From Marinicella meishanensis (lineage in GTDB: Bacteria > Pseudomonadota > Gammaproteobacteria > Xanthomonadales > Marinicellaceae): a stretch of DNA of 64,000 nucleotides. The number at the start of each line of letters is the position of its first letter. Within the stretch, counting starts at the first letter, position 1. The position numbers and the translations under genes are program-made. Of the stretch, positions 36,391 to 49,172 are shown piece by piece. A model generated the notes under the pieces. The model was not told the origin of the DNA. It saw only the letters and a list, made by a program, of their open reading frames with translations, and did no database searches. The stretch spans positions 62,001 to 126,000 of the forward strand of contig NZ_JAIOUV010000005.1 of assembly GCF_019931145.1 (NCBI RefSeq), read 5' to 3'.

Positions 36391-39300
36391 ATGAAGGTGT
36401 TTGTGACCACCAATCAAAAATCAGCAGCGACGGTATGCGTGTGGTTGCCAATGATCGCTTTGTTGAGTTTGTTGGGCTTGCTTGTGGGTCCGGTCCATGC
36501 CATCAATGATGAACAATGGCAAGTCGAACACATCCAAATCGAAGATGGCTTACCCGATTCGACCATTTACTCTGTGGTCCAAGACCAGTCCGGATTCATC
36601 TGGCTGGGCACCACCAGTGGTTTGGCCCGTTATGATGGTTACGCTTTCAAGTCCCTGAAACACGACGGGGCAGATCCCAACACGATTTCAAACAACAATG
36701 CCGGCAACATCTTTGTCGACTCCAAAAACCGCCTGTGGGTGGGCACCTTTGGCGGTGGGGCCAATTTGATGGACCTCGAGACCGGTGAACTCAGGCGCTT
36801 TCCTTATTCCAGCAGCCAATTCCAAACCATGGTCTCGGAAAATGTGCAAACCTTTCATGAAGACCCCTTGGGTCAAGTGTGGATCGGAACAGCCACCGGC
36901 TTGTATCGTTTTGATGAACAAAACATCAAATTCTACGCTTCTGGTTTGACGGCCTCCGGTGATGAGCCATATCGGGTATGGGACATCGTGGGCGATGAGC
37001 AACGACTTTGGTTGGGCACTTCAGATGGCTTGTATGAGGTCAACCCCATCAACGGGGGGTTCAAGCACCATCAATTGCCATTGAACTTACAAATCGACAT
37101 CACTTCCAATCAGTTTCGCACCTTGCATTTAAAAGGTGATGCCTTGTGGATCGGTTCTTCCAGTGGCCTGTATCGATTTGACCTGAGAACGGCAGAGTTC
37201 AGCTTCCATGAAGCGACAGGCAACAACCTCAAAATCAATGACTTGTATGAAACCGATCAAGGTGATTTGTTGGTGGCCAGCATGGAAGGCTTGTATTTAT
37301 TTGATTTGGCCAACGATCAATTCATGCAGCGCGAGGCGGGGCAGTTGTGGCAAGCCATGGGTCACGTGGATGTGCGCAACATCAACGTCGATCACTCAGG
37401 CATCATGTGGCTGGCCACGCGTGACAACGGTTTGTTTAAAATTGATTTGGCCGGAGGTTTGTTCAAGCACCACCCGAATTACCTGGCTGACGAATGGCTC
37501 ACTGAAAAAGCCAAACAAGTGTGGTCAATTGAATACGATGCCGATGGCCTGATCTATTTCGGCACCTCTGAGACGGTGTTCAGAAGACACCTGGATGGGA
37601 CCTATGACCGCATCACCACAGCAGAAGGGGACCCAATCGATGGTTTCATCAGAGACATTGAGACGACAGCGGCAGAAGGCTTGTGGATTGCTGGCAGCAC
37701 GGGTTTGTATTTTCTCAATCGTGACAGCTCGGTGGCTGCAGCCGTCACCACCCCCTTTGACTTGGTAGGCATCGATCCAGCCGATATCTTTTCCATTGAG
37801 ATCGATGATGATGGCGAAATGTGGCTGGCCTTGTATAACTTGGGCATATTGCGGTGGAACCGGGCGGCCAACACCGCCGAGTTGATGCAGTCATATGCGG
37901 CCGGCTCTTTGATTGATGTGAACATCACCCACATCAAGAAAGACCGTTTGAATAACCTGTGGATCAGCAGCAATTTGGTGGGTTTGTTTCGGTTTGATAA
38001 AGCGGTCAATCAGCTGACCTTATACCGTCACGATTACAACGACAAAACCAGCATCGCTTCCAATCGCATCAAAGATGTGGTTGAAGACAGCAGTGGCCGG
38101 CTATGGATCGCCACGCCCATGGGGTTGAGCCAGTATCACCATGATCGCAATGAATTCACCAACTACGCCAAAACCGAAGGTTTGATCAACAATCGGATCA
38201 ATTTCATCATCGAAGATTCACAACAAACCCTCTGGCTGGGTAACAAGTTTGGCTTGACCAAATTCAATCCTGAACGCCAAGAATTCAAGAATTACTTGTT
38301 GAACACTGCGATACGACACGATGGCATGATCACCCGCTCAACCACCATTGATGACCGTGACGTCATTTGGTTGGGCAGCGCCAATGGTTATTACACCTTC
38401 AATCCCGATGACAACCAAGACAACAGTGAGTTTGTGCCGCCCCTTATTTTGACCGAGGTCAGGGTGGACAACCGGCCTTGGCGTCCAGGTAAATTGTTGT
38501 TTGAAGAATCGGCCTTTACCCTGAACCCTGAAAATCAGGTGATCAGCTTTGACATCGCGGTTTTGGACTACAAAGCGCCCGAACAAATTCAGTACTTGTA
38601 TCGTTTGGAGGGCTTGCACGACAATTGGTTGGATGTCAGCAACACCCGTCGCATTGATTTGAAAGACTTGACCCCCGGCGCTTATCAGCTGGACATCATG
38701 GCGCACAACAACGACGGTCGTTGGGAGGAACAAAGTTTGCGCTTCCAAATCAAAGTGTTGCCGGTGTGGTGGGAGCGCACCTGGGTCAGGGCGCTGGCGG
38801 TGATCCTGTTTTTGCTGCTGGCCATCTTGTTGCACAACTACCGCACGTTCAAAATCAAACGCCAAAACTTGATGTTGGAACAAGAGGTGAGTAACCGAAC
38901 TTTGGAGTTACAAAACCTCAATGAACAACTTGAGATGGCGGCCAATTCAGATTACCTCACGGGTTTGCCCAACCGCATGGCCTTCATCAATGCCTATGAA
39001 GAATTACTGAAACAGCGGGATGCCAACCCGTTTGGGGGTTGCATCGTGATGGGTGACGTCGATCATTTCAAATCGATCAATGACCGCTTTGGGCACAATG
39101 CCGGTGATGAGGTGTTGGTTCAAGTCAGCCAATTGGTGCAACAATCGTTGCGGGAAGAAGACTTGATTGCGCGGTGGGGTGGTGAAGAATTTATTTTTTA
39201 CTTTGCCGACAAAGACGCCACCGCCACCGCCAATTTGATTGAACGCATCCGCGACACCGTCGAAAACAGTGTGCTTGATTACCAAGGGGAGGGCATCCAA

Positions 39301-39426
39301 GTGACCATGACTTTCGGCATCAGCCAACGGCAAGCAGGCATGAGTCTGATTGACTGCATCAATGCCGCGGATGAGGCCATGTACGCCGGTAAGCGCTCAG
39401 GTCGCAACCAAGTGGTGGTGGCTTAA
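36391..39426 (+). CDS. Periplasmic-propeller / Y_Y_Y sensor with cytoplasmic GGDEF diguanylate cyclase
   Basis: A 1011-residue membrane sensor predicted to make cyclic di-GMP. After an N-terminal signal/anchor (about 17-37) come two-component-regulator-propeller repeats to about 690 (recurring GLPDSTIYSVVQD, GFIWLGTTSGLARYDG, LWIGTATGLYRFD units), a Y_Y_Y domain (about 700-795), a membrane helix (about 800-818), a short coiled coil and a GGDEF domain (about 850-1011). The active-site loop is RWGGEEF near 930 and the inhibitory RxxD site (REED) is present five residues before it, so it should be active and product-inhibited. In relatives the same sensor half drives histidine kinases. Confidence 0.93.
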   Translation: MKVFVTTNQKSAATVCVWLPMIALLSLLGLLVGPVHAINDEQWQVEHIQIEDGLPDSTIYSVVQDQSGFIWLGTTSGLARYDGYAFKSLKHDGADPNTISNNNAGNIFVDSKNRLWVGTFGGGANLMDLETGELRRFPYSSSQFQTMVSENVQTFHEDPLGQVWIGTATGLYRFDEQNIKFYASGLTASGDEPYRVWDIVGDEQRLWLGTSDGLYEVNPINGGFKHHQLPLNLQIDITSNQFRTLHLKGDALWIGSSSGLYRFDLRTAEFSFHEATGNNLKINDLYETDQGDLLVASMEGLYLFDLANDQFMQREAGQLWQAMGHVDVRNINVDHSGIMWLATRDNGLFKIDLAGGLFKHHPNYLADEWLTEKAKQVWSIEYDADGLIYFGTSETVFRRHLDGTYDRITTAEGDPIDGFIRDIETTAAEGLWIAGSTGLYFLNRDSSVAAAVTTPFDLVGIDPADIFSIEIDDDGEMWLALYNLGILRWNRAANTAELMQSYAAGSLIDVNITHIKKDRLNNLWISSNLVGLFRFDKAVNQLTLYRHDYNDKTSIASNRIKDVVEDSSGRLWIATPMGLSQYHHDRNEFTNYAKTEGLINNRINFIIEDSQQTLWLGNKFGLTKFNPERQEFKNYLLNTAIRHDGMITRSTTIDDRDVIWLGSANGYYTFNPDDNQDNSEFVPPLILTEVRVDNRPWRPGKLLFEESAFTLNPENQVISFDIAVLDYKAPEQIQYLYRLEGLHDNWLDVSNTRRIDLKDLTPGAYQLDIMAHNNDGRWEEQSLRFQIKVLPVWWERTWVRALAVILFLLLAILLHNYRTFKIKRQNLMLEQEVSNRTLELQNLNEQLEMAANSDYLTGLPNRMAFINAYEELLKQRDANPFGGCIVMGDVDHFKSINDRFGHNAGDEVLVQVSQLVQQSLREEDLIARWGGEEFIFYFADKDATATANLIERIRDTVENSVLDYQGEGIQVTMTFGISQRQAGMSLIDCINAADEAMYAGKRSGRNQVVVA

Positions 39427-39456
39427 CGGTTCGGGTTGCTTGGGTTGAAATCCAAA

Positions 39457-39490
39457 TGGACTCTCAACCGCAACAGCGGTCAAGAGTCCA
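39457..39490. terminator. Long two-part hairpin between convergent genes
   Basis: TGGACTCT (39457-39464) pairs with AGAGTCCA (39483-39490), and inside it ACCGC (39467-39471) pairs with GCGGT (39476-39480) around AACA. It lies in the 74-base gap between the GGDEF gene and cysK and probably terminates both strands, though T runs are poor. Confidence 0.65.
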
Positions 39491-39500
39491 ATCATTTCGA

Positions 39501-40439
39501 TCAGACGGCATCCGAGCCGTCGGCAAAATCTTCAAACAAATAGGTGCTCAAGTAGCGTTCGCCGGTGTCTGGCAACATGGCCAAGATGACCGAGCCGGCT
39601 GGGGCTTTGGCTGCTGTGGCCAAGGCTGCTGCAAAGGTGGCGCCGGCTGAAATGCCACACAAAATACCTTCTTTGGAAGCCAATGACAAGGCCGCCGATT
39701 TGGCCTGATGTTCATCAATTGGAATCAAGTCATCATAGATGCTTCGGTTCATCACATCGGCGACAAAATCTGGCGTCCAGCCTTGTAATTTGTGCGGTGA
39801 CCATTCTTTGCCCGCCAATAATTGGGCTTCCACCGGCTCGGTGGCCACAATGGTGATGTCTGGTCTGGCCAGTTTCAACATTTCTCCGGCCCCGGTGATG
39901 GTGCCGCCTGTGCCATAACCGCTGACATAGTAATCCAGTCGTTGGCCAGCAAAATCGCGCAAAATCTCCGGCCCGGTGGTTGACCGGTGGTAGGCGGGGT
40001 TGGCTTCATTTTCAAATTGACGGGCCAAAAACCACCCGCGTTCATGCGCCAATTCCTCGGCCTTGGCGACCATGCCAGAACCCCTGGCTTCGGCTGGGGT
40101 CAGCACCACTTTGGCACCCAATGCGCGCATCAATTTGCGCCGTTCAATAGAAAAGGTTTCACTCATCACCGCCACAAACGGATAGCCTTTGGCGGCACAG
40201 ACCATGGCCAGGGCAATGCCGGTGTTGCCGGAAGTGGCTTCCACCACGGTTTGGCCTGGTGACAATTCGCCTTTGGCTTCGGCGTCGGCGATGATGGCGT
40301 GGGCCAAACGGTCTTTGACTGAGGCCAAGGGATTGAAATATTCAGCTTTCACATACATGGTCACATGTTCAGGGGCGATGTGGTTGATGCGGATGATGGG
40401 GGTGTTGCCGATGGTTTCTAATATGTTGTTATAAATCAT
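39501..40439 (-). CDS. cysK: Cysteine synthase A (O-acetylserine sulfhydrylase)
   Basis: PLP enzyme making cysteine from O-acetylserine and sulfide. 312 residues with the PLP lysine Lys42 in NPLASVKDRLA, EATSGNTGIAL and the GYGTGGTITGAGE phosphate loop, and CGISAGATFAAAL toward the end. Follows cysG by 10 bases in one operon, a sensible pairing: siroheme for sulfite reductase, then sulfide fixation. Confidence 0.95.
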   Translation of the reverse strand: MIYNNILETIGNTPIIRINHIAPEHVTMYVKAEYFNPLASVKDRLAHAIIADAEAKGELSPGQTVVEATSGNTGIALAMVCAAKGYPFVAVMSETFSIERRKLMRALGAKVVLTPAEARGSGMVAKAEELAHERGWFLARQFENEANPAYHRSTTGPEILRDFAGQRLDYYVSGYGTGGTITGAGEMLKLARPDITIVATEPVEAQLLAGKEWSPHKLQGWTPDFVADVMNRSIYDDLIPIDEHQAKSAALSLASKEGILCGISAGATFAAALATAAKAPAGSVILAMLPDTGERYLSTYLFEDFADGSDAV

Positions 40440-40449
40440 GGGATACTCA

Positions 40450-41886
40450 TTAAGCAGTTTTCAATAATTCAGCCTGGTTTGGGTGGGCCACATGGGGGGC
40501 AAACCAATCCAGTTGTTGCGCATATGCGGCCACCTCGCCAATGACAATCAGGGCCGGTGACTTGATGGCATGGTCTCTTATCATAGCAGTTAATTGGTGT
40601 AATTGTCCGGTGACGGTGCGTTGTTCTGGTCGGGTGCCATTTTCAATGACGGCAAGGGGCACGGCGGGGTCTTTGCCATGGCTGATCAATTGGCGAACCA
40701 GCTCATCGGCCTTGATCAAGCCCATGTACACGGCCAAGGTCTGTTGATTTTTGGCATAGAACTGCCAGTCAATGGCATCTTTGGAGTCGCTGCAATGGGC
40801 GGTGATGAAGGCCAAACCCTGGGCGTGATCGCGGTGCGTCAATGGAATTCCTGCATAGGCTGCACAGCCCACAGCCGCGGTGATGCCTGGCACGATTTCA
40901 AAGTCGATTTGTTCGGCTTTGAGGGCTTGTATTTCTTCACCGCCGCGACCGAACACAAACGGGTCACCGCCTTTTAAACGGCACACGTGCTTGCCCAAAC
41001 GGGCCTGTTTGATCAACAGTTGATTGATCGTTTGCTGTTTGGTTAAGTGCTTGCCTGCCTGTTTGCCCACATCTATCAACTCAGCATCTTGTCGAATCAT
41101 GGCCATGATGTCGGTTGCAATCAAATGGTCATGCAGCACCACATCGGCGCTTTGCAGCACTTTGATGGCTTTGATCGTGAGCAAATCTGGATCACCGGGC
41201 CCAGCGCCAACCAAGCTGACCCGACCTTCGGTTTGGTTAACCGCTTCGATGTGTTGCTCAATTTGTGCTGAATTGGGGGTACGGTATTGGCCGCGCAACA
41301 GGCGCAAGCTGCCATGCGACCAATCAAAGAAGCGGTCCCAAAACCGACGTCGGTTGTTAAAACTTGGCACCCGTTGCTTGATGGTTGGTCGCCACTGGTT
41401 GGCTTGTTCAGCGATTTGTCCCAAATTCTTGGGCAACAAGTATTCGATTTTCTGTTTGATCATGCGGGCCAACACCGGGGCGGTGCCGGCGGTGCTGATG
41501 GCCACCTTGACCGGTCCACGATTGACCACGGCTGGGGTGATGAAATCACAACGGGGTGGTTCATCTACGGTGTTGATCAACCAACCACGCGTGGCGGTGT
41601 ATTGATGGATTTGGGCGTTGAGCTGGGGGTCATCGGTGGCTGCAATCACCAACTTGGGTCGCGGCAGTTGTTGCAGCACCTGTAGGTCCTGCAGGTCATG
41701 TGTGATCAATTTGATCGGTTGGTGTTGAGCCGCCTGCTTGATGTCGGCATGGAAGGAGGCCGCCACACAATGCACCTCGGCGCCGGCTTGACACAATGAT
41801 TTGATTTTTCGCCATGCCACGGCACCACCACCGATGACCCAAACAGGCTGTTGTTCAATGTTGAGATTGATTGGCAAATACTTCAT
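40450..41886 (-). CDS. cysG: Siroheme synthase CysG (multifunctional)
   Basis: Converts uroporphyrinogen III to siroheme, the cofactor of sulfite and nitrite reductases. 478 residues in two modules: an N-terminal dehydrogenase/ferrochelatase (about 1-210; VWVIGGGAVAWRKIKSL, TDDPQLNAQIH) and a C-terminal SAM-dependent uroporphyrinogen methyltransferase (about 215-478; LVGAGPGDPDLLTIKA, LKGGDPFVFGRGGEE, GITAAVGCAAYAGIPLTHRD). It is divergent from cysB across a 175-base regulatory region. A possible promoter is TTGGAT (41936-41941), 16 bases, TATATT (41914-41919) on the minus strand. Confidence 0.96.
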   Translation of the reverse strand: MKYLPINLNIEQQPVWVIGGGAVAWRKIKSLCQAGAEVHCVAASFHADIKQAAQHQPIKLITHDLQDLQVLQQLPRPKLVIAATDDPQLNAQIHQYTATRGWLINTVDEPPRCDFITPAVVNRGPVKVAISTAGTAPVLARMIKQKIEYLLPKNLGQIAEQANQWRPTIKQRVPSFNNRRRFWDRFFDWSHGSLRLLRGQYRTPNSAQIEQHIEAVNQTEGRVSLVGAGPGDPDLLTIKAIKVLQSADVVLHDHLIATDIMAMIRQDAELIDVGKQAGKHLTKQQTINQLLIKQARLGKHVCRLKGGDPFVFGRGGEEIQALKAEQIDFEIVPGITAAVGCAAYAGIPLTHRDHAQGLAFITAHCSDSKDAIDWQFYAKNQQTLAVYMGLIKADELVRQLISHGKDPAVPLAVIENGTRPEQRTVTGQLHQLTAMIRDHAIKSPALIVIGEVAAYAQQLDWFAPHVAHPNQAELLKTA

Positions 41887-41963
41887 GGCTCATATTCTCG
41901 ATACAATGGGCTCAATATAACCATCTGGCCGGCTGATCCAAAATAGTTTAAAAGCATGGGTAT

Positions 41964-41978
41964 ATAACAAATAGTTAT
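41964..41978. promoter_or_regulatory. LysR-type inverted repeat between cysG and cysB
   Basis: ATAAC (41964-41968), five bases, GTTAT (41974-41978): a perfect inverted repeat with T-N11-A spacing, the usual shape of a LysR-family site. It sits directly beside the met boxes in the cysG-cysB gap and is a candidate for CysB itself. Confidence 0.5.
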
Positions 41979-41979
41979 C

Positions 41980-41995
41980 AGACGTTTAGACGTCT
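41980..41995. promoter_or_regulatory. Tandem met boxes (MetJ operator)
   Basis: AGACGTTT followed directly by AGACGTCT. The second is identical to the 8-bp met box consensus and the first differs at one base; two adjacent boxes are the minimal MetJ operator, bound by two dimers side by side. MetJ is encoded 5.5 kb away. The boxes end three bases before the -35 hexamer of the predicted cysB promoter. Confidence 0.85.
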
Positions 41996-41998
41996 ATA

Positions 41999-42027
41999 TT
42001 GTTTATTTGTGATCAGGCTGTTATGAT
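41999..42027 (+). promoter_or_regulatory. Predicted cysB promoter
   Basis: TTGTTT (41999-42004), 17-base spacer, TATGAT (42022-42027), 35 bases upstream of the cysB ATG. Confidence 0.65.
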
Positions 42028-42061
42028 CCGGTCTCATAGACCACAGCAACACCAAAGTGTC

Positions 42062-43039
42062 ATGAAATTGCAACAACTCAGATTTTTTGTCGCCGTTTGT
42101 CATTCCGGCTTGAATGTGACTGCAGCGGCCAAACAACTGTTCACTTCACAACCTGGGGTATCCAGACAGGTGCGCCTGTTGGAAGATGAATTGGGTTTCA
42201 GTCTGTTTGTCAGACAGGGTAAAGCCCTGGTGGCTCTGACCCACGCCGGAAAAGAAGTGTTGCGGCGGTCCGAACGCATCCTCAAAGAGGTGGAAAACAT
42301 CAAAGCCTTCAGTCATGAACTGACCAATGACCGCAATGGGCAATTGAACATCGCCACCACCCACACCCAAGCCCGATACGTGTTGCCATCGGTGCTGAAA
42401 CAATTGCATGAGGTGTATCCGTCGATCAAAGTCAATTTATTGCAAGGCACATCGCAACAGAACCTGAAATCTTTGCGCGAGGGTGAAGTGGACTTCGTGA
42501 TCAGCTCCGGCGGCACCGAAGAGGCCACCGACTTGGTGAAACTGGATTTGTATAAGTGGCAGCGCAAAATCGTGGTGCCCAAAGGCCATGTCTTGGCCCA
42601 ACAAGACAGCATCACCCTGGCCGAATTGTCTGGGCATCCATTGATCGTCTATGTGGGCAATGACCAACAAAACTCCAGCCTGGTTCAGGCTTTCCAAGCA
42701 GCGGGTTTGGACTACCAAATTGTGTTCACAGCCCGTGATTCTGATGTCATCAAAACCTATGTCAGATCTGGTCTGGGGGTGGGCATCATTGCATCCATGG
42801 CGGTCGACAAACAGCACGACTCAGACCTGCATGCCCTGGACACGGTGGGCATTTTGCCGTTGAGCGCCACCTGGTTGGCGTTCAACCCCAGTTTGTTTTT
42901 GCGTGGCTTCATGCATGAATTCATTCAATTGTTTGCCCCCCATGTGAAGCGGGAGCAGGTGCAGTCTGCCATTGACAACAAGCTGTTGTTGATTGATCCC
43001 CAAAAGCAAACAGAGCCGATTGATTCTGCTTGGCAGTAG
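42062..43039 (+). CDS. cysB: LysR-family cysteine regulon activator CysB
   Basis: A 325-residue LysR regulator (E. coli CysB has 324). The helix-turn-helix starts MKLQQLRFFVAV and contains NVTAAAKQLFTSQPGVSRQVRLLEDELG; the effector domain includes TTHTQARYVLP and GEVDFVISSGG as in CysB, which binds N-acetylserine/O-acetylserine and senses sulfur state. The ATG at 42062 gives the exact family N-terminus. It is divergent from cysG-cysK, its likely targets, and preceded by tandem met boxes. Confidence 0.94.
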   Translation: MKLQQLRFFVAVCHSGLNVTAAAKQLFTSQPGVSRQVRLLEDELGFSLFVRQGKALVALTHAGKEVLRRSERILKEVENIKAFSHELTNDRNGQLNIATTHTQARYVLPSVLKQLHEVYPSIKVNLLQGTSQQNLKSLREGEVDFVISSGGTEEATDLVKLDLYKWQRKIVVPKGHVLAQQDSITLAELSGHPLIVYVGNDQQNSSLVQAFQAAGLDYQIVFTARDSDVIKTYVRSGLGVGIIASMAVDKQHDSDLHALDTVGILPLSATWLAFNPSLFLRGFMHEFIQLFAPHVKREQVQSAIDNKLLLIDPQKQTEPIDSAWQ

Positions 43040-43156
43040 CCAATTGATTTGCGGTCCTTTTCAGGTTGGTGGTTTTATTTCAATGCCGAAGCCGATTTGA
43101 TTGAATTGCATCAATGACCCCAATGAGCTTGTCATATTCTTGAATTCGGTCACTGA

Positions 43157-43174
43157 TTCAAACGTTCGTTTAAA
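43157..43174. promoter_or_regulatory. AAACG-TT-CGTTT inverted repeat upstream of the lipase
   Basis: TTCAAACG, TT, CGTTTAAA-like arms match at 7 of 8 positions. It ends 6 bases before the -35 hexamer of the lipase promoter. It shares the AAACG-NN-CGTTT core with the palindrome at 31490-31501 and resembles PsrA-type fatty-acid-responsive operators; that reading is an inference. Confidence 0.5.
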
Positions 43175-43180
43175 ATTGTA

Positions 43181-43209
43181 TTGACAACGCAAGTGTACTC
43201 TGTTAAAAA
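43181..43209 (+). promoter_or_regulatory. Predicted promoter of the lipase operon
   Basis: A perfect TTGACA (43181-43186), 17-base spacer and TAAAAA (43204-43209), 50 bases before the lipase ATG, which has an AGAGAGGG ribosome binding site. Confidence 0.65.
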
Positions 43210-43258
43210 AATGTGAACAGGCCGTCAGAGCCTGACACACAACAAAAGAGAGGGTATT

Positions 43259-44200
43259 ATGAACAGTCATCGAGTATCGACGACCGTCATGTTGGTTTTG
43301 CTACTGATCAGTGGATCATCCGCAGCCTCATGGTGGAACAACAACTACACCAAAACCAAGCATCCCATTGTTCTGGTCCATGGTTTGTTTGGTTTTGACC
43401 AAGCCTTTGGCATTTACAACTATTTTTATCGCATCCCTGGGGCCTTGGCTGATGACGGTGCCACCGTCTATGTGGCCGACGTCTCAGCGGCCAACTCCAG
43501 TGAACTGCGCGGTGAACAGTTGTTAGCTCAACTGGAGCTGTTACAAGCCTTGTATGGTCATCAAAAATTCAATTTAATCGGCCATTCTCATGGGGCACCC
43601 ACGGTGCGCTATGTGGCGTCGGTGCGTCCTGAGTTGGTGGCCTCAGTCACTTCCGTGGGCGGCCCCAACACCGGCAGTCCGGTGGCCGATGCGGTGCAAA
43701 CCGTGGCACCACCTGGGTCCTTCATCGAAACGGTGCTGGCTGCCACGGCCACGGCATTGGCGGAATTGATCGAGTGGGCTTCTGGCAATGACAGTGCCCC
43801 ACAAGACGTGTTGGCGGCTTTGGGGGCTTTGACCAGCACCGGCGCGGCTCAATTCAATCAAAATTTCCCTGAAGGCATGCCCAACTCACCCTGCGGTGAA
43901 GGGGCTTATGCGGTCAATGGGGTGAAATACTACTCTTTCAGTGGCACCCGCACGGTCACCAATGCGCTCGATCCGATCGATGCACTGTTGGGGCTGACGG
44001 GGCTACTGTTTTATGGCGAAGCCAATGACGGTTTGGTGGGACGATGTTCTTCACATCTGGGTCGTGTGCTGCGAGACAACTACAAATGGAATCACGGAGA
44101 TCAAGTGAATCAGGCTTTTGGGATCAGGGGCTTATTCACTTCGAGTCCAGTGGCGGTCTACCGGGCACACGCAAACAGATTAAAAAATGAGGGTTTATGA
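43259..44200 (+). CDS. lipA: Secreted triacylglycerol lipase (Pseudomonas family I type)
   Basis: A 313-residue alpha/beta hydrolase with signal peptide MNSHRVSTTVMLVLLLISGSSAA. The oxyanion motif is VLVHGLFGFD, the nucleophile Ser110 lies in IGHSHGAPTVRYVA, and the catalytic Asp and His fall in YGEANDGLVGRCSSHLG and NHGDQVNQAFG. Two cysteines (SPCGEG and GRCSSH) match the conserved disulfide. Such lipases fold in the periplasm with a dedicated foldase, then leave through the type II system; the foldase gene follows after three bases. Confidence 0.95.
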   Translation: MNSHRVSTTVMLVLLLISGSSAASWWNNNYTKTKHPIVLVHGLFGFDQAFGIYNYFYRIPGALADDGATVYVADVSAANSSELRGEQLLAQLELLQALYGHQKFNLIGHSHGAPTVRYVASVRPELVASVTSVGGPNTGSPVADAVQTVAPPGSFIETVLAATATALAELIEWASGNDSAPQDVLAALGALTSTGAAQFNQNFPEGMPNSPCGEGAYAVNGVKYYSFSGTRTVTNALDPIDALLGLTGLLFYGEANDGLVGRCSSHLGRVLRDNYKWNHGDQVNQAFGIRGLFTSSPVAVYRAHANRLKNEGL

Positions 44201-44203
44201 ACC

Positions 44204-45160
44204 GTGAAATTTAAATACACCGCCTTAACGATCACCATCATCATCACCATCATCGCGTCCGTGAGCTGGTGGCAAATGGGGGTTGCTGCCAAAACGGTTC
44301 GGGTTCTCGAGCAGCCACTGTTGCGTGACACCCAGTTACCGGTCACACATTTCAGTCGGTCCCCCAGCACTGTCACAATGGCTGAGCAAGCCGATGCTTC
44401 CATGGCACAAGCGGTTGCCGTCACTTCACTGGCCGGCACCTCACCCGATGGGGCGGTCAATATTGATGCGCACGGTAATGTGTTGATAGATCAAGACTTG
44501 CACCGTTTGTTCGACTACTGTTTGACCGCGGTGGGAGAGCTGTCACCTGAGCAAATCAGACACCAACTGTTGACCACTGCCAGTGATTTCTTGTCACTGA
44601 GTCAGTTGGAACAGCTGCGTGATCATTTTGATAACTACCTGGAATATTTGCAGGCGGCCGATCATATGGCGCTGTCCAGCTTACCCAGCGATGATTTGGC
44701 CACGCAACTGGAGGCCATCAAAAAGTTGCGTCGGGATTACCTGGGTTCAGCCATGGCTGACGCTTTCTTTGCCGAAGAAGAAGCTTATGCCGGTTATGCC
44801 ATGTCTGGTCAGTTATCAGAAGTGGAGGCCTCTGATGCGGTGAAACTGAAATGGCTGCAAGCCGAAGAGCAGGCCACTGCCTTTCATGACGTGTTGTTGG
44901 AAAATCAATTGTTCAATGAGGTGGCTTTGGCAGCCAGTGACCGCTTGACCGTTCGGGCGGAAACTTATGGCACCGAAGTGGCCTTGAAATTGGCTGCCTT
45001 GGATGCCCAACAACAATTGTGGCAAGCCGAAGTGGACCAATACCTGACCACCCGCCTTGAACTGGCGCATGATGCGGTGTTGTTGGCCGCCTATGAGGAA
45101 GCCATCGAGCCGCGAAAACTGCGGCGTTTGCAGGCCCATTACCGAGCCGAGTTTAACTAA
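44204..45160 (+). CDS. lifO: Lipase-specific foldase (lipase chaperone)
   Basis: A 318-residue inner-membrane-anchored periplasmic steric chaperone. A single N-terminal membrane helix (about 8-23) is followed by a variable linker, the SLAGTSPDG segment (75-83) and the foldase signature RLFDYCLTA (101-109, the R-x-x-FDY-x-L-[ST]-A motif), then long helices that wrap the lipase. The start is GTG, which may lower its yield below that of the lipase. It ends at a strong terminator. Confidence 0.94.
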   Translation: MKFKYTALTITIIITIIASVSWWQMGVAAKTVRVLEQPLLRDTQLPVTHFSRSPSTVTMAEQADASMAQAVAVTSLAGTSPDGAVNIDAHGNVLIDQDLHRLFDYCLTAVGELSPEQIRHQLLTTASDFLSLSQLEQLRDHFDNYLEYLQAADHMALSSLPSDDLATQLEAIKKLRRDYLGSAMADAFFAEEEAYAGYAMSGQLSEVEASDAVKLKWLQAEEQATAFHDVLLENQLFNEVALAASDRLTVRAETYGTEVALKLAALDAQQQLWQAEVDQYLTTRLELAHDAVLLAAYEEAIEPRKLRRLQAHYRAEFN

Positions 45161-45176
45161 GACCTGTTACATGAAC

Positions 45177-45212
45177 CACCCGGTCGTTTCTGACAGCCGG
45201 GTGTTTTTTTTT
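45177..45212 (+). terminator. Rho-independent terminator of the lipase operon
   Basis: CACCCGG (45177-45183), a 13-base loop, CCGGGTG (45197-45203) and nine T residues, 16 bases after the foldase stop. Confidence 0.92.
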
Positions 45213-45232
45213 GCTCATCACATTTTCACCCC

Positions 45233-46381
45233 ATGTGCGACAAAATCAGGGTTTTGCACGACGCCGCCATTTTGAATTTGAGCCCAGCACACCAACAATC
45301 TGCGAACCAAACCCACTGGACCCTGTTGGCCATCCGTCATGCCATGGTGGCCGATGCCCATGCCATGCCGGTGCATTGGTATTACCGCAAAGCAGACATT
45401 GAGCGGGCTTTCCCGGATGGCTTGGATGGCCTGTATGCGGCACCCGCGCAGCACCCCAGTGCCATCATGTCTTTACACTCCAAGCAACACGGCGGACGAC
45501 ACCGCTTGGGCGCGCAACAAGCCGACGTGGTGGGGGCGGTGATCTTACATGACAAGGCTGAATTTTGGGATCGGCCAGGGGTGCATTACCACCAAGGCCT
45601 GCAAGCCGGTGACAACACCCTCAATGCCCACACCGTGTTGTGGTTATTACAAGCCATGGTTGACAGGGGTGGCAGTTACCAGGAGTCGGCTTTTTTGCAG
45701 CATTACGTGAATAAAATGACGGCCCAGCCACCACAGCACCCAGACACCTATGCCGAATCTTACCACCGGGGATTTTTTGCCAATTGGGCCAGCGGCCAAA
45801 GTGCAGCGGCATGTGCCGCCGTCACGCACGACACGCCTTCGGTGGGCGGTTTGGTCAGAATCGGGCCATTGGCGCTGCTGTTGTTGCATCAAGGCATGGC
45901 TGTGGCCGATGTCAAAACGGTGGTGGCGCGACACCTGGACTTAACCCACCCCGATGCGGCTTTGAAAAAGGTCTGTTTCCAGTATGTGGATCTGATCAGC
46001 GGTTTACTGGCTGCCGCTGACCCAGCCGCCGCTGAACGGTTGTTGCAACAACATTTACTGACCGCAGCGGGGCGCCATTTCAAACGCAAACCCGTGGCAC
46101 AATGGTCTGATGCAGCAGTGCTTGGTGGCTTGTATTCAACCGCTTGTTACATCCGTGATGCCTGGCCCAGTGTGTTGTATCTGGCCAATAAATACCATCA
46201 CGACCTGCGCCAAGCCTTACAAGTCAATGCCCAATTGGGGGGCGACAACGTCCACCGAGGTGCGGTGTTGGCTTTGCTCATCACTTTGATCAACCCCCAG
46301 CCACTGGATGACTGGTATGCGCAGTTGACCCTGGCCGCTGAATTGGATGCCTGTTTGGCGGCATTGGGGCTGTTGTCATGA
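45233..46381 (+). CDS. Divergent ADP-ribosylglycohydrolase-family protein
   Basis: A 382-residue, all-helical, apparently cytoplasmic protein. The N-terminal MVADAHAMPVHWYY corresponds to the family's GDALG-type metal segment, GLVRIGPLALLL to the central helix, and GGDNVHRGAVLALL (about 345-358) to the GGDTDT-x-GA metal motif. In the last, the second Asp and the Thr are replaced by His and Asn-Val, so the two-magnesium site is altered. The substrate may be something other than protein ADP-ribose, or it may be a binding protein. Its stop overlaps the next gene by four bases. Confidence 0.78.
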   Translation: MCDKIRVLHDAAILNLSPAHQQSANQTHWTLLAIRHAMVADAHAMPVHWYYRKADIERAFPDGLDGLYAAPAQHPSAIMSLHSKQHGGRHRLGAQQADVVGAVILHDKAEFWDRPGVHYHQGLQAGDNTLNAHTVLWLLQAMVDRGGSYQESAFLQHYVNKMTAQPPQHPDTYAESYHRGFFANWASGQSAAACAAVTHDTPSVGGLVRIGPLALLLLHQGMAVADVKTVVARHLDLTHPDAALKKVCFQYVDLISGLLAAADPAAAERLLQQHLLTAAGRHFKRKPVAQWSDAAVLGGLYSTACYIRDAWPSVLYLANKYHHDLRQALQVNAQLGGDNVHRGAVLALLITLINPQPLDDWYAQLTLAAELDACLAALGLLS

Positions 46382-47451
46382 TGAAACGGTTGCAATGGCT
46401 GCTCACCCTGGTTGTGATGTTGACGATGCTGGCTTTGGTCAGTGGTTGTTGGCGCTCAGCCCAATATCAAAAACCTGCGGTGGCCGCTCCGCACCATGGT
46501 CCAGATCGCTTCATCAGCCAGTCGCAAAAAAGCGACTCGCCGTTTTGGGATTACCTCAAAATGCGTTGGCGGGAAGGGCGCATCGAGTCGGCCTCAGCCA
46601 ACGACATACAAGCGGTCATGGTGGCGGTTGATCAGGCATTGATCCAAGCCGAGACGCCAGAGCCGAGGGTCACTTGGTTGGGACATGCTGCGGTGTTGGT
46701 GCAATACCAAGGCGTCAGTTTTTTGACCGATCCGCATTTGAGCGACCATGCCTCTCCTTTGCCATTTGGCGGCCCCAGCCGGGTGGTGCCACCGGCGTTG
46801 ACGGTCGAGCAATTGCCTGAGGTTGATTTCGTGGTGATCTCACACAACCACTACGACCACCTGGATCACGAAACCGTGGTCGCTTTGGGCAATCGGGTGC
46901 ATTGGTATGTGCCGTTGGGCATTCAACAATGGTTGTTGAAGAGGGGCATTGATTCTGACAACATCACCGAGTTGGATTGGTGGCAGAGCGAGTCATTTGG
47001 GCCTGGTATTGAGGTGGTGGCCACCCCTTCACAACATTGGTCCAAACGCACCCCGTTTGACACCAACAAAACCCTGTGGGCCAGCTGGCACATCAACATC
47101 CATGGCTTCAAGACCTGGTTTGCTGGAGACACCGGCTACCACGCCCAACGCTTTCAACAAATCGGCCAACAATTGGGCCCCCATGACCTGGCTTTGATCC
47201 CGATTGGTGCTTATGGCCCTCGGTATTTCATGTTGCCTCAACATGTTGATCCGGCACAAGCCGTACAAACCCATTTGGACGTCAAATCCAAACACAGTGT
47301 GGGCATCCATTGGGGGACATTTGAATTAACCCATGAGCCATTCTTGGCGCCCAGAAAATTACTGGAGGAATCAGCCAAAGAGCTGTCTCATGGGGTGTTT
47401 GAAACTTTGCAAGTGGGCCAAACGCGGTTGTTGACACTGCAAGTGGAATAG
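46378..47451 (+). CDS. MBL-fold lipoprotein, NAPE-PLD/UlaG-like metallohydrolase
   Basis: A 357-residue metallo-beta-lactamase-fold enzyme. The lipobox LVSGC puts Cys24 as the lipidated residue, so it is membrane-anchored on the periplasmic side. WLGHAAVLVQ leads into the metal motif HNHYDH (156-161), and further ligands lie in PSQHWSKR, FAGDTGYH and GIHWGTFELTHEP. This set matches N-acylphosphatidylethanolamine phospholipase D relatives, so a phospholipid headgroup is a plausible substrate. ATG-ATG start; ATGA overlap with the upstream gene shows co-translation. Confidence 0.87.
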   Translation: MMKRLQWLLTLVVMLTMLALVSGCWRSAQYQKPAVAAPHHGPDRFISQSQKSDSPFWDYLKMRWREGRIESASANDIQAVMVAVDQALIQAETPEPRVTWLGHAAVLVQYQGVSFLTDPHLSDHASPLPFGGPSRVVPPALTVEQLPEVDFVVISHNHYDHLDHETVVALGNRVHWYVPLGIQQWLLKRGIDSDNITELDWWQSESFGPGIEVVATPSQHWSKRTPFDTNKTLWASWHINIHGFKTWFAGDTGYHAQRFQQIGQQLGPHDLALIPIGAYGPRYFMLPQHVDPAQAVQTHLDVKSKHSVGIHWGTFELTHEPFLAPRKLLEESAKELSHGVFETLQVGQTRLLTLQVE

Positions 47452-47469
47452 GCCGGGGCCGCCCTGAGG

Positions 47470-47742
47470 CTATTGGCCGCGTAATTTTCGGTCGTATTCG
47501 GTGTTGCTTTTGCTGAGGTCTTCGTCGGTGGGCAGGGGTTGGCCAGTGTAGGCATGCAGGAAGGCTTCACACAACAATTCGCTGTTGGTGGCATGTTTCA
47601 GATTGGCCACCTGTCGGCGGGTGCGTTCATCGGTCAGAATTTTCAACACATCAAACGGGATGGAGACCGTGATCTTCTTGACCCGCTCACTCTTTTTGCC
47701 ATGTGGCACATAAGGATTGATGTATTTGCCGTTCCAAGCCAT
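47470..47742 (-). CDS. metJ: Methionine repressor MetJ (short form)
   Basis: Ribbon-helix-helix repressor that binds met boxes with S-adenosylmethionine as corepressor. 90 residues. The ribbon KKITVSI (22-28) and the helices [31 protein letters not shown] are almost identical to E. coli MetJ, so operator recognition should be the same. The C-terminus after [10 protein letters not shown] is replaced by a short unrelated basic tail, about 15 residues shorter than E. coli MetJ (105). It converges on the MBL gene with 18 bases between stops. Confidence 0.96.
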
Positions 47743-47744
47743 AT

Positions 47745-47760
47745 AAACGTCCAGATTGAT
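47745..47760 (-). promoter_or_regulatory. Possible met box at the metJ start
   Basis: AAACGTCC on the plus strand matches six of eight met box positions and is followed by AGATTGAT (4 of 8). It begins two bases upstream of the metJ ATG, downstream of the predicted promoter. Weak autoregulation is possible. Confidence 0.35.
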
Positions 47761-47769
47761 AAAACCATC

Positions 47770-47797
47770 ATTTTATCATGAAGCCGAGTGAATTCAA
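47770..47797 (-). promoter_or_regulatory. Predicted metJ promoter
   Basis: The minus strand has TTGAAT (47792-47797), 16 bases and TAAAAT (47770-47775). The -10 is inside a 7-bp inverted repeat (GATAAAA 47758-47764, TTTTATC 47771-47777). Confidence 0.5.
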
Positions 47798-47800
47798 CGT

Positions 47801-48076
47801 TCACTTTTTCTTGTAGGACAGGAAGAATCCTTCCAAGTCACCATTTTCGGTGTAGGGGTTGATGCCGACCAATTCATAGCCAGCGGCACCGAATTCGGCA
47901 TGGATTTTGGTCATCTTTTTGGCCGCCAGGTTTTTTCTGGTCAGCTTGTTCACATCCATGAACACCGTCATGGCCGGTAAGTTGTTGGCTTGGGCGTATT
48001 CGGCATCGGATTTGGCGGTGGCCCAGCTTTGCCACAGCATCAGGCTGGTGAAGATCATGGCTTGGTACAGTTTCAT
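47801..48076 (-). CDS. Small exported protein of unknown function
   Basis: A 91-residue protein. The ATG at 48076 follows a GGAG site and starts a signal peptide (MKLYQAMIFTSLMLWQSWATA). The mature part is a compact mixed domain (TVFMDVNKLTRKNLAAKKMTKIHAEFGAAGYELVGINPYTENGDLEGFFLSY) that I do not recognise; the AGYELVGINPYTENGD stretch looks like a strand-turn-strand. It is divergent from trpS and lies just upstream of metJ on the same strand. Confidence 0.7.
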   Translation of the reverse strand: MKLYQAMIFTSLMLWQSWATAKSDAEYAQANNLPAMTVFMDVNKLTRKNLAAKKMTKIHAEFGAAGYELVGINPYTENGDLEGFFLSYKKK

Positions 48077-48167
48077 GCGTTGCTCCGGTTTTGATTTGTC
48101 GTTCAGGGCATTGTATTTACTGACAGGGGTCCAATACAATAGTGCATTTTGAACAATTGGACAGTCA

Positions 48168-49172
48168 ATGAACACGGTTTTAACAGGAATCACCACCACC
48201 GGCACCCCGCATTTGGGTAATTACGTGGGTGCCATCAAACCCGCCATCAAACGCAGTCAAGACGAGGCGGTTAACAGTTATTTCTTTTTGGCCGATCACC
48301 ACGCCCTGATCAAATGCTGGGAACCTGAGCGGGTGGCACAATCCACCAAGGAAATTGCTGCCACGTGGTTGGCTTTGGGCCTGGATACCGACCAGACATT
48401 CTTCTACCGCCAATCAGACATTCCAGAGATCACCGAGTTGACCTGGCTGTTGACTTGCATGACCGCCAAAGGCTTGATGAACCGGTCGCATGCCTACAAA
48501 GCGCAGGTGGCCGAAAACACCGAAAAAGGGGAAGAAGATCCGGACAAAGGCATCACCATGGGCCTGTTCAGTTATCCGGTGTTGATGGCCGCTGACATCC
48601 TGATGTTCAATGCCACTGAAGTGCCGGTGGGCAAAGACCAAACCCAGCACCTGGAAATGGCGCGTGACATCGGTGCCCGTTTCAATCACCATTTTGGTGA
48701 GCACTTCGTGATGCCCAAAACCGTGGTGGATGACAACGTAGCGGTGTTGCCTGGTTTGGATGGTCGAAAAATGAGTAAGTCTTACAACAACACCATCCCT
48801 TTGTGGTTGCCAGAGAAACAACTGCGAAAACACATCATGAAGATCAAAACCAACTCCTTGGAGCCCGGTGAACCGAAAGATCCCCATGATTCTTTTGTGT
48901 TTGATATCTACAAAGCCTTTGCATCTGAACAACAAGTGAATGAAATGAAGGCCGAATTTGCCAACGGCATCGCATGGGGTGCGGCCAAGCAAGTGCTTTT
49001 TGAGATGATCAACACAGAATTGCAAGAGGCCCGGGAAAAATACCAAGAATTGATCAACAACCCCGCTATAATTGAACAGGAGTTAAAAAAGGGTGCGGCC
49101 AAAGCCCGAGCCTATGCCACGCCATTTTTGGTGCGATTGAAGGAGGCAGTGGGGATCCGGCCAATCAAATAA
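48168..49172 (+). CDS. trpS: Tryptophanyl-tRNA synthetase
   Basis: Class I aminoacyl-tRNA synthetase, 334 residues. The HIGH-like motif is TPHLGNYVG near 12-20 and the KMSKS motif is [10 protein letters not shown] near 200. [17 protein letters not shown] is also diagnostic. The divergent gap of 91 bases to the small exported gene has TTGTAT and TACAAT 18 bases apart as a possible promoter. Confidence 0.96.

Follow-up and report, generated by a model that had tools for sequence, protein, structure and literature searches.

The cysB locus and its met boxes

In the window (the whole 64-kb stretch of Marinicella DNA that was analysed), a gene for a cysB-type LysR regulator lies divergently from cysG and cysK, and the gap between cysB and cysG contains a LysR-type dyad, two met boxes and a candidate cysB promoter (Table 1). 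The divergent cysG-cysK pair named in the first-pass annotation was upheld by profile scores. For the regulator itself, the best NCBIfam family is CysB (368.8 bits, below the equivalog cut-off of 436), the best match among solved structures is CysB 1al3 (E 1.6e-84), and the THTQARY motif is kept in 14 of 15 aligned rows, allowing conservative changes inside the motif.

Table 1. Features of the cysB region and of metJ, numbered from the first letter of the window
Feature	Position	Strand	Basis
cysK	39501..40439	-	TIGR01139 394 bits, cut-off 350.95
cysG, divergent gene	40450..41886	-	NCBIfam CysG 583 bits, cut-off 400
LysR-type dyad ATAAC-N5-GTTAT, probable CysB (auto)regulatory site	41964..41978	.	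sequence; CysB binding presumed
met box 1, AGACGTTT	41980..41987	+	read from sequence; pattern scan; kept in 12/12 same-genus cysB genes
met box 2, AGACGTCT, perfect consensus	41988..41995	+	read from sequence; pattern scan; genus conservation
-35-like TTGTTT of cysB	41999..42004	+	sequence; position conserved
-10-like TATGAT of cysB	42022..42027	+	sequence; position conserved
cysB-type LysR regulator, 325 aa	42062..43039	+	NCBIfam best match CysB; best PDB match CysB 1al3
metJ, 90 aa	47470..47742	-	NF003622 160 bits (cut-off 110); PF01340 154 bits (cut-off 25)
weak box pair over metJ start, possible autoregulation	47737..47752	-	11/16

The two boxes, AGACGTTT and AGACGTCT, are adjacent 8-bp units that together match two consensus boxes at 15 of 16 positions. 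This observation, already made in the first-pass annotation, is confirmed: within the window the pair is the only match at up to 3 mismatches (shuffle mean 0.04 expected), and in the 3.99 Mb genome it is the top match, with 0 mismatches to AGACGTNTAGACGTCT, followed by a pair before metX with 1 mismatch. At up to 3 mismatches, the met-box pattern was not enriched across the 3.99 Mb genome, where 7 forward matches stand against 23 for the reversed-pattern control. Therefore, the weight of the identification lies with the top matches and with their conservation.

The boxes end three bases before TTGTTT, which is separated from TATGAT by a spacer of 17, and the dyad lies on their other side; the annotated placement, three bases upstream of a -35 and beside a LysR-type repeat, was thus recovered in both respects. 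The description of the cysB promoter as 'good' held in part. Its position is conserved, as a promoter scorer puts the -10 of 11 out of 12 same-genus genomes at +42 to +44 relative to the start of the boxes (in G003 it chose another place), but it matches the consensus at only 8 of 12 positions and a stricter promoter scan of the window found none, so that the word 'good' has to rest on conservation. An exact dyad is present in 10 of the 13 family genomes compared, and the window's own genome has it at only two places, the second without an evident cys gene in the list of open reading frames. A CysB regulon could not be drawn from the dyad motif, given only these 2 exact places.

The metJ gene is the only PF01340 match in the genome and lies 5.5 kb from the boxes. 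Its product carries the ribbon KKITVS, identical to that of E. coli, in agreement with the earlier claim of a nearby MetJ with an unchanged DNA-binding ribbon, and residues K23 and T25 are invariant in nine aligned rows from three families. At 90 aa, the protein is shorter than a full-length MetJ (~104 aa), and its similarity to E. coli MetJ stops at about residue 81. In several genomes only a few kb separate the gene from cysB. The weak box pair over the metJ start scores 11-12 of 16 at all 12 metJ loci of the genus, with a shuffle frequency of 0-0.04, and part of this match is the gene start itself. Elsewhere in the window, 36391-39426 encodes a protein of 1011 aa whose end looks, on visual inspection, like a GGDEF-type domain (GGEEF).

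Conservation of the boxes and their co-occurrence with MetJ

Among 18 same-genus genomes, cysB was found in 12 and MetJ in 12: both in 11, cysB only in G007, MetJ only in G006, and neither in five. All 12 cysB genes keep the upstream boxes. The first-pass annotation had proposed phylogenetic footprinting and named boxes missing from metJ-bearing close relatives as a refuting outcome; the comparison gave the opposite result. G007, which has cysB and boxes without a MetJ match, is a fragmented genome of 340 contigs that is 91% complete. When 13 rows of the family were anchored on the boxes, the boxes had a pairwise identity of 0.86 and the dyad one of 0.82, against 0.44 further upstream. In the same-genus genome G017, cysB is 93% identical to that of the window.

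A CysH-type protein (PF01507) is present in all 12 genus genomes with cysB; of the six without it (G001, G002, G006, G008, G010 and G011), five have no CysH-type match and G010 has a weak one (E 1.2e-11). Because CysH tracks cysB in this way, cysB goes with sulfate assimilation in the genus. Five of these six genomes also have no MetJ. In 10 genus loci metX adjoins a box pair; one of these, with strong met boxes, is in G010 (locus L052), though no MetJ was found in that genome. At cysH, the best box-pair scores in 11 family loci range from 10 to 14, where 13 and 14 correspond by coordinates to the boxes before cysB in G003 and G482; the remaining scores are at most 12 over 2.3-3.5 kb, and these 11 loci hold no direct MetJ site of note at cysH.

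Across the order to which the window belongs, 145 of 398 genomes and 30 of 98 genera gave a MetJ match; among 369 genomes drawn from the class MetJ was found in five, two of which are in this order. We scored the DNA upstream of cysB in 82 order genomes that have both MetJ and cysB, a subset of the MetJ holders hand-picked to span genera, and in control genomes called MetJ-less by their absence from the MetJ profile matches. A box pair of at least 11/16 lies within 400 bp of cysB in 80 of the 82, and 71 of them reach at least 12/16, against 0 of 39 genomes without a MetJ match at 11/16. The 40th row without a MetJ match is G007, with a score of 15. In shuffles of the same upstream stretches, 11 was reached in 8.3% and 12 in 1.2%. 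The two MetJ-bearing genomes below the threshold, G674 and G602 (both f12), have a best pair of only 10/16.

Two rows were dropped from this count: G740, where the gene stands at a contig end with no upstream DNA, and the second CysB-like gene of G655 (locus L224), which lies ~5 kb from the first and is boxless (10/16). In 13 of 78 genomes no CysB match reached the cut; in many genomes the scoring covered only 29 candidates, and for one genus concerned, g310, other members were matched, so that absence of the gene is not implied. The MetJ coordinates of G576 and G406 coincide, and the two probably represent a single MAG.

The three MetJ genomes from other parts of the class have no box pair upstream of cysB, with scores of 8, 9 and 9. 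Of 80 named cysB loci, only those of Marinicella sediminis (14) and of a SZUA-51 MAG (13), whose genome also carries MetJ, score above 11; the other 78, among them Vibrio and Pseudoalteromonas, were scored for boxes alone. In E. coli K-12 the best pair upstream of cysB is an 11/16 candidate at -276 inside topA, which we took as a chance match.

How often the association arose independently was approached with a quick CysB tree of 59 rows, on which MetJ and the box need 6 changes each and never disagree. Supported branches provide 3 pairs, all in the same direction, a number that cannot reach significance (p 0.25), and some of the long branches are uncertain; the independent evolutionary events are few. 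A Fisher value of 2.6e-28 for the association ignores kinship and is not used as evidence. The regulatory link from methionine to cysteine that had been suggested for this locus is supported by the comparison of genomes, and it would be wider than was suggested.

Operator position and the proposed action of MetJ on cysB

The placement of the boxes relative to the promoter varies with lineage. Our simple promoter scorer assigned a box-associated promoter to 44 of 81 genomes (f1 with G576, f12 and f11), and every such promoter faces cysB. For f1 and G576, 13 of 14 genomes have the -10 at +42 to +44 from the box start, with the boxes just upstream of the -35. In f12 it is at box start +5 in 27 of 61, i.e., the boxes lie over the -10, and these 27 promoters are composed of TTGAC, a spacer of 17 or 18, and TATAGA or TACAGA inside the box pair; for the remaining f12 genomes the scorer gave no promoter near the box (28/61) or one elsewhere (6/61). 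In f11 the -10 is at box start -6 in 4 of 6, and the boxes follow it directly. Because the operator occupies different positions in these three lineages, repeated recruitment or selected rewiring is easier to envisage than one inherited site. That MetJ generally controls cysB in those lineages of the order that carry it, and that this control was fixed more than once, seems to us about as likely as not. By guesswork, we take f12 to resemble Rhodanobacteraceae and f2 Xanthomonadaceae. Cysteine-rich leader peptides before cysB, suggested by eye in f12 and f2, were inconsistent across one genome per f12 genus and were set aside. A putative MetJ is mentioned in a passage on strain R12, which we take to be the Rhodanobacter of that paper (PMC12146267).

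With two adjacent 8-bp boxes near AGACGTCT, a location beside a promoter, three bases from its conserved -35, and presence with MetJ (80/82) as well as absence without it (0/39, G007 being the exception), 41980-41995 is probably a MetJ operator of the cysB promoter, through which SAM-bound MetJ would repress cysB. MetJ binding, repression and an effect on the sulfate genes are what we infer from these features. When S-adenosylmethionine is plentiful, SAM-bound MetJ dimers would occupy both boxes and sit directly against the -35, between it and the LysR-type site. Transcription of cysB would be lowered, either because RNA polymerase is excluded or because its contact with a neighbouring CysB is disturbed; both are possible because the Marinicella boxes have the -35 directly on one side and the dyad on the other. 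Repression from such a position, upstream of the -35, is less self-evident than from an operator covering the -10. Less CysB would in turn mean less sulfate assimilation, and the cell would halt the supply of cysteine for methionine when methionine suffices. As no notable met box was found at cysH in the 11 loci, the reach of MetJ to sulfate reduction would pass through CysB.

One could suppose instead that the boxes are a MetJ operator serving mainly the divergent cysG-cysK genes, which we regard as unlikely. The boxes do lie in the cysB-cysG gap here and in most relatives checked, and in most f12 genomes they are 104-230 bp from the cysB start. However, the conserved core promoters beside them face cysB, and a box persists where the divergent gene is cysK-like rather than cysG (two same-genus and four f12 genomes). 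In f11, moreover, 5 of 6 genomes have the boxes only 28-57 bp from the start of cysB, and the single f11 locus that we inspected showed neither cysG nor cysK.

It is similarly doubtful that MetJ binds here with a small or even positive effect on cysB, for example by displacing a self-repressing CysB. In E. coli, CysB represses its own gene, and in f1 the boxes are flanked by the dyad and the -35, with the core promoter itself unobstructed. Against this, the f12 boxes overlap the -10 and the f11 boxes follow it, positions that are expected to repress. Least probable is that the match arose by chance or that the palindrome serves another purpose, such as another repressor's site or a hairpin: the pattern lacks genome-wide enrichment at 3 mismatches and a hairpin of 6 pairs, followed by T-rich DNA, can be drawn from the boxes, but they are conserved, co-occur with MetJ, share their sequence with a site before metX, and lie upstream of the -35 and hence outside the predicted cysB transcript, in a region (39000-48500) where an Rfam search up to E 1 gave no match.

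Relation to known MetJ regulons and significance

Repression of cysB by MetJ would join a known repressor and a known operator to a different target. The classical MetJ regulon shares the repressor family, the tandem 8-bp boxes and a metX target (in Pasteurellales), but the passages describing it concern other orders, whereas here the order is that of the window and the target is cysB (PMC3228920, PMC4239095). In its passage on distribution, one survey confines MetJ homologs to five orders, the Enterobacteriales, Pasteurellales, Vibrionales, Aeromonadales and Alteromonadales, and states that cysteine metabolism genes appear never to have metboxes in the orders surveyed (PMC3228920). The 145 MetJ-bearing genomes among 398 of the window's order contrast with the former statement. 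A second survey places MetJ in the same groups, and its section considered here names csd in Vibrionales and mccAB without naming cysB (PMC4239095). Our literature search recognised no description of a MetJ-cysB link, and the full target tables of these surveys may still list cysB; a direct wire between methionine and cysteine control therefore appears undescribed.

Two known systems come close to the arrangement proposed here. In the control of metR, the MetJ target is likewise a gene for a LysR-type activator that serves a neighbouring sulfur pathway, and feed-forward loops are described in the second survey (PMC4239095); the difference is that MetR governs methionine genes, and CysB sulfate assimilation and cysteine. 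McbR of Corynebacterium resembles MetJ as proposed here in that one repressor responsive to SAM metabolism reaches both methionine and cysteine genes, as outlined in the same source (PMC4239095). However, McbR is a TetR-type, SAH-responsive and unrelated protein.

The genome comparisons support a new target, putatively cysB, that is kept across several families of the order, and they extend MetJ to an order that the distribution passages of the two surveys did not count among its holders (PMC3228920, PMC4239095). If the reading of the boxes as a MetJ operator on cysB is true, it ties sulfate assimilation directly to the level of SAM, and methionine is predicted to lower the whole CysB regulon. 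Methionine is made from the sulfur of cysteine, yet in the classical orders MetJ is reported to spare the cysteine genes (PMC3228920). Should MetJ control of cysB prove to be the rule in the order, a master regulator of cysteine placed under the methionine repressor would be a circuit of general use beyond the five classical orders.
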